Source: Treponema sp.
GTDB taxonomy: Bacteria; Spirochaetota; Spirochaetia; Treponematales; Breznakiellaceae
Reading direction: 5' to 3'
DNA length: 41,344 nt
Assembly: GCA_031258005.1 (NCBI GenBank)
Contig: JAIRNP010000186.1
Coordinates: 1 to 41,344 of the forward strand
Below, in pieces: positions 36,074 through 36,729 of the stretch. The position numbers and the translations under genes were made by a program. Under the pieces are notes generated by a model. That model was not told the DNA's origin, did no database searches, and was given only the letters and a program-made list of their open reading frames with translations. Position 1 is the first letter of the stretch; each line of letters opens with the position of its first letter.

Positions 36074-36131
36074 ATGCCTAAAAATAAAATCTGGCCGAAA
36101 AGGGGGATGCCTCATAACTAAAAATCTGGCC
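36074..36131. repeat. Short imperfect direct repeat (about 33-bp period)
   Basis: ATGCCT at 36074 and 36107 each lead into an A-rich stretch and the word AAAATCTGGCC (36086-36096 and 36121-36131). The repeat lies directly next to the large inverted repeats that follow. Confidence 0.5.
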
Positions 36132-36141
36132 CGGAATATAA

Positions 36142-36296
36142 TAGGCCGAATGTCGAGTTTCGACTAATTCGCCCTTATTTATTCACCGCAAAGTCGAATA
36201 AGTCGAAGAAGGAAGGAAAAAAGAACAATTTGGCGCTAAAAACTTATTCGACTTCTTCGACTTGGCGGTGAAATTTAAAACTCGAAGTTCGGCCTA
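36142..36296. repeat. Nested imperfect inverted repeat 1
   Basis: An outer stem pairs 36142-36160 with 36278-36296 (19 bases, two mismatches). An inner stem pairs 36182-36210 with 36244-36272 (29 bases, three mismatches). The inner arms contain 9-base tandem words of the form AAGTCGAAT/AAGTCGAAG. No open frame exists inside. The size and structure fit a MITE-like or palindromic dispersed element, or a strongly folded RNA. Confidence 0.75.
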
Positions 36297-36299
36297 ATA

Positions 36300-36416
36300 A
36301 ACGTGAGTTCGACAGAGAGAAAAAAGTCCGCCGGACTTTAGTCCGCTATTACGCGAATGTATTCGAATAATTCGCTGAAATCAGCGTTTATTCGCGGATT
36401 CTATCGAACTCACGTT
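36300..36416. repeat. Nested inverted repeat 2, abutting a truncated gene
   Basis: Perfect 13-bp ends (36300-36312 AACGTGAGTTCGA and 36404-36416) enclose several smaller palindromes. These are AGTCCG-C-CGGACT near 36326, GGACTTTAGTCC, CGCGAAT/ATTCGCG (36352-36358 with 36390-36396), TATTCGAATA, and GCTGA-AA-TCAGC (36374-36385). The last bases supply the TAA stop of the gene that begins at 36729, so the element appears to have inserted into or replaced that gene's end. Confidence 0.7.
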
Positions 36417-36729
36417 AATTATGAACAGGAGAAAGGCAATTATAGAAAACACGTACCAGGAGTATCAGCAAGCCGGGCCGAGGCGAAATCCTGGACCGTT
36501 TGGTTCCCGTAACCGGGATTACCTGCCGGCCCTGGGGAACCGGCAGCATCGCCCTGCCGTCCTCATCGCAGAGGTATTCTTCGCCGTCCCAGGAATGGAT
36601 CACGGCGCCCTCCAGGGGTATATCCAGGTCCGCGCCGCGAACGGTGCTGGTCACCTCCCCGGCAAAAAGCGGCCCCCAGAGGCTGAAAAAGACCGCTGCG
36701 ACCAGAAGCCGGAGGGGGGATTGTGCCAT
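36415..36729 (-). pseudogene. Truncated, probably frameshifted secreted protein
   Basis: The frame gives a signal peptide (about 1-23, ending LFAGEV) and a small beta domain with GADLDIPLEGAVIHSWDGEE, then YLCDEDGRAMLPVPQGRQV, resembling peptidase-associated regulatory-like or Ig-like repeats. After about residue 70 the sequence turns unlike the rest (TKRSRISPRPGLL). In the shifted frame it reads NPGYGNQTVQDFASARLADT, which continues the PGY pattern expected for such domains. The TAA stop lies in the end of the neighbouring inverted repeat. A frameshift plus truncation is the best reading. The ribosome site is weak. Confidence 0.5.

Follow-up and report, generated by a model that had tools for sequence, protein, structure and literature searches.

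Two adjoining palindromic elements of a Treponema contig are very probably gene-less MITEs of the IS982 type

The strongly palindromic region at positions 36139–36421 of a Treponema sp. contig (hereafter the window, meaning the whole 41,344-nucleotide stretch that was analysed, one contig of a 2.65-Mb assembly that is 81% complete) very probably consists of two different, adjoining miniature inverted-repeat transposable elements (MITEs), A and B, each a remnant, without genes, of an IS982-type insertion sequence. Both share their ends with transposase-bearing elements, occur in multiple copies, are flanked by target duplications and contain no gene. MITEs derived from IS982 elements are a known kind, and no description of these particular families was found for this spirochaete lineage; a search combining Treponema with miniature inverted-repeat elements returned no paper with Treponema in its title or abstract, within a partial coverage of the literature that does not establish priority.

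Two long stem structures lying side by side had been noticed in a first-pass annotation of the sequence, and both were recovered by an inverted-repeat search, with arms at 36139–36160/36278–36299 (22 nt, 86%) and 36182–36211/36243–36272 (30 nt, 90%) in the left-hand structure and at 36295–36316/36400–36421 (22 nt, 91%, with a perfect 13-bp core, AACGTGAGTTCGA) in the right-hand one. Their folding energies are far beyond those of dinucleotide shuffles, with z-scores of −8.45 for 36139–36299 and of −6.6 and −7.7 for the two strands of 36295–36421. An ORF scan found no frame of at least 100 aa inside the hairpin region, in keeping with the annotation, which had seen no open frame there. The two structures had also been read, tentatively, as one composite element, and here the genome speaks differently: a search of the own assembly with 36130–36425 returned two independent families that occur apart elsewhere, as query positions 6–170 (A) recur as a unit on contigs C129 and C145, and partly on C140, and positions 171–292 (B) recur without A in more than 20 other places. 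The features of the region are collected in Table 1.

Table 1. Features of the palindromic region, in positions of the window
Feature	Position	Description
Element A, very probable IS982-like MITE, 151 bp	36144–36294	Terminal repeats GGCCGAATGTCGAGTTT / AAACTCGAAGTTCGGCC; copies at 91–96%; ends common to the G051 element
Left target duplication of A, TAATA	36139–36143	Direct repeat of 36295–36299
Right target duplication of A, TAATA; overlaps with B's left flank	36295–36299	Direct repeat of 36139–36143
Inner hairpin C (TTCACCGCAAAGTCGAATAAGTCGAAG...), long palindrome inside A	36182–36272	Core-alone matches in many genomes; standalone at L025 and L163
Element B, very probable IS982-family MITE, 115 bp	36301–36415	Terminal repeats ACGTGAGTTCGA / TCGAACTCACGT; numerous copies, in the own genome and in related ones; ends identical to those of the parent IS982
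Left flank of B, TAATAA (single-mismatch target duplication)	36295–36300	6–7 bp duplications in the B family
Right flank of B, TAATTA	36416–36421	6–7 bp duplications in the B family
Micro-palindrome CGGACTTTAGTCCG inside B	36332–36345	46 genome-wide GGACTWWAGTCC sites, 0 in reversed control

The family of element B numbers more than 20 copies in its own genome, and many more are present in relatives. Its exact 13-bp end motif, ACGTGAGTTCGAY, was found 28 times in the genome versus 0 times in a reversed control, and the motif is frequent within the genus and in a small number of further genera of the family. Of the 46 two-ended copies, 12 have an exact 6–7 bp direct repeat immediately outside the ends, where deliberate mispairing of left and right flanks gave an expectation of 0.4, and exact duplications of this kind at the ends are characteristic of a DDE transposon. 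With one exception, AGTTTA, the twelve have the form T(N)4–5A (TAAGTA, TACATA, TGTATA, TAAAGTA and TAATTTA, among others). Most copies lack an intact duplication, and the flanks of the copy in the window differ by one base. The ends begin ACGTGAG, that is, with the 5'-AC that is common among IS982 members; in the IS982 family, 57 of the 69 catalogued members have such ends (the other 12 do not), and duplications range from 2 to 10 bp (PMC7335449), a range that includes the 6–7 bp of B. Further copies and flanking target duplications, for which the first-pass annotation had proposed a search, do exist, the copies both in the own genome and in relatives.

The annotation had further suggested a dispersed non-coding element, either moved in trans or folded as RNA, and the first half of that suggestion has held, in that the elements are repeated, non-coding and probably moved in trans. 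It is quite improbable, by comparison, that the two hairpins constitute a structured non-coding RNA, or a cis-acting RNA or terminator. The folds are indeed very stable, and terminator-like minus-strand hairpins occur at 36339–36323 and 36164–36145, between two minus-strand reading frames; however, an alignment of 27 copies of B retains almost only the terminal stem, and across the terminal 12 positions of that stem 41 changes are one-sided and 1 is compensated, which argues against a functional RNA for B. Near-identical 115-bp copies do share a fold, simply by descent, and the copies are found in varied contexts and with target duplications. No Rfam family came near its gathering score, and the microRNA matches that Rfam did return, all below threshold, are most likely due simply to long hairpins. 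Some incidental termination or stabilisation of mRNA may still occur, affecting a minus-strand transcript that spans 36729 to 36020. Within this interval, a small minus-strand ORF (36415–36729) has a signal-peptide-like start and a stop codon supplied by the junction with the right end of B, and may be a gene truncated by insertion of B; it had no Pfam match, and a search next to the downstream gene in relatives did not recover it.

The parent of B was sought through transposases that adjoin B-type ends. An intact, 1,011-bp IS982-family element with an ORF of ~299 aa was found in Spirochaetaceae bacterium Cd354_bin111 (locus L391, 738–1748), where the transposase scores 247.9 bits to the NF033520 IS982 profile (cut-off 130), both terminal inverted repeats are identical to those of B, and the 7-bp target duplication, TAATGTA, is of the same type. 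The terminal repeat of B is also shared with transposase-bearing IS982 sequence at L260/L390, and a genus-mate, G006, possesses an IS982 transposase whose frame is open and whose score exceeds the family cut-off, with an exact B end upstream; Treponema sp. Roe453_bin17, to which G006 corresponds, has an IS982 with this end, and the protein is 100% identical. Degenerate IS982 sequences with a B-type end occur in G046, G003 and G007, that of G046 being a 992-bp B-ended element with a broken IS982-type gene. No IS982 match over the family cut-off was found in the window's own assembly, and for this reason the parent may sit in the missing fifth of the genome, or the element may be stranded here. 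A separate, 839-bp element with exact B-type ends (L220 1022–1861, on G013:C55) contains two kinds of tandem repeats; considered as a transposase-bearing parent, it was ruled out, being filled with these repeats and having no transposase.

Element A is present in its own genome as two other full copies (L002 and L003) and one partial copy, at 91–96%, and its ends, GGCCGAAnnTCGAGTTT, are bounded by identical 5-bp TAWTA duplications in all three full copies (TAATA here and TATTA in the other two). A 1,017-bp element of a related genus (G051:C132:332–1348) has ends that are exactly A-type on both sides, and its gene is a degenerate IS982-like transposase with one break, the halves of which score 88.9 and 35.8 bits, below the cut-off of 130; IS982 was the sole family that this broken transposase matched in a profile search. 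Single A-type ends also adjoin IS982-like fragments in G012 and G001. The ends of A start with GGCC, not with 5'-AC. The assignment of A to IS982 is good, and weaker than that of B because the parent gene in G051 is broken and, in G012 and G001, A ends lie beside fragments only.

Within A, the inner hairpin C has a distribution of its own. Some match to the whole query was found in 38 of the 99 relatives, the core of the hairpin matches alone, without the ends of A, in many genomes of the family, and standalone hairpins occur in the own genome as well. Since hairpin C is found without A's ends in other genomes, A has acquired another palindrome or been entered by one. At L064, L066 and L163, the hairpin core (ACCGCGAAGTCGAAGAAG...) is enclosed by another shell; the flanks are similar, and the end apparently lies near AGCACTTACTTT.

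Even less probable than an RNA is the view that A and B are REP/REPIN-type palindromes moved by a RAYT (Y1 HUH) transposase. The own genome does contain 17 Y1_Tnp matches and abundant REP-like GACTTGT...ACAAGTC hairpins, and hairpin C and the micro-palindrome could themselves be of REP/REPIN type; the A and B families, however, have target duplications and share their ends with DDE IS982 elements, and HUH elements are not known to make target duplications. The 17 matches, of IS200/RAYT type, lie in the single 2.65-Mb assembly (G000) and include L080 and L081, beside many of the GACTTGT...ACAAGTC hairpins. Scarcely credible is a third alternative, in which B would be a remnant of an rve integrase-type insertion sequence whose degenerate transposase frames adjoin a B-type end at L054: intact relatives of that transposase end in unrelated sequences (e.g., GAAAATGTTACCG) and lack B-type ends, for which reason it was rejected as a parent, and the IS1202 family, considered through the same lead, was dropped with it.

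As IS982-type MITEs, A and B have probably spread in trans, by the transposase of a full-length IS982 relative. Each element would have retained only the terminal inverted repeats of its parent, with palindromic filler between them; an IS982 DDE transposase supplied from elsewhere would recognise these ends, cut the element out and reinsert it at T/A-bounded, AT-rich sites, and gap repair would then produce the short target duplications, mostly T(N)4–5A for B and TAWTA for A. The two elements would adjoin because the TAWTA target of A lies within the TAATWA duplication beside B. Judging from the repeats, A is probably the younger insertion, as its duplication is perfect and that of B carries one mismatch (TAATAA vs. 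TAATTA). No empty site could be demonstrated for the A/B locus via the downstream gene, because relatives have no orthologous sequence upstream.

A link between this region and the hairpin at 356–402 had also been proposed in the first pass, through a common GGACTTTAGTCC core, and this proved inexact: the core is not exactly present at 356–402, where two one-mismatch versions of it are found. The arms of that hairpin read GACTTGT...ACAAGTC, as in a large set of REP-like hairpins of the own genome, and it belongs to a different, REP-like family and is no copy of A or B, having in common with B only one-mismatch versions of GGACTWWAGTCC, a palindrome of 12–14 bp. Further towards the contig start, positions 1–85 form a low-complexity run rich in C, apparently an artefact of assembly or sequencing.

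The micro-palindrome is itself widely distributed. When its 46 sites were sorted, partly by eye, ~16 fell in B-type elements and ~15 in REP-like hairpins; the remainder are in other contexts, among them several transposase genes. Omission of exactly 14 bp, CGGACTAAAGTCCG, leaves an uninterrupted transposase-like frame in three genes (L358, L378 and L360), and the same restoration was read by eye in L370; in two IS30-like copies (L373 and L388), the 14-bp palindrome is instead in frame, encoding RTKVR. The transposase-family names of these palindrome-bearing genes come from motif reading and not from profile matches. Among variants of B, the difference is one of whole 15-bp palindrome units, from none to several GGACTTTAGTCCGCC. 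From these patterns, the 14-bp palindrome looks like a very small insertion unit that may be mobile, although a contig scan with an ISAs1-like fragment recovered no palindrome-free homologues. More tentatively, and with the balance tilting somewhat against it, CGGACTAAAGTCCG could itself be a mobile or repeatedly templated unit; it would then have entered transposase genes, REP-like hairpins and IS982 MITEs of this spirochaete without duplicating the target, and would multiply in tandem inside B.

Known systems offer several points of comparison. With IS982 insertion sequences (PMC7335449), the present elements share ends that begin with AC (in B), variable short duplications, and a ~1-kb parent with an IS982 transposase, whereas A and B lack a transposase, and the A family begins with GG and has a distant IS982 relative as its parent. 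A precedent for IS982-derived MITEs is MITECca01 of Cardinium cOegib, derived from ISCca4 of the IS982 family (PMC9769881), which is likewise short and gene-less, has the ends of an IS982-family parent, and occurs in many, mostly intergenic copies. MITECca01 differs in its length of ~240 bp, its end sequences, the phylum of its host and the presence of an intact parent in the same genome, whereas A and B, at 151 and 115 bp, have strongly palindromic interiors and a parent known only from relatives. A MITE of P. gingivalis with a minisatellite (PMC4596501) contains short tandem repeats, as do copies of B, while family and host differ and the repeat unit of B is itself a palindrome.

The striking palindromes of this treponeme lineage are thus very probably explained as IS982 MITEs with a nameable parent, which allows them to be masked and annotated as such. 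What is moderately surprising here lies for the most part in the micro-palindrome: if its mobility were true, the 14-bp CGGACTAAAGTCCG would rank among the smallest mobile palindromes of bacteria, and a palindrome of this size, apparently entering genes and other repeats, would be a case in which extremely small mobile DNA can be put to the test.
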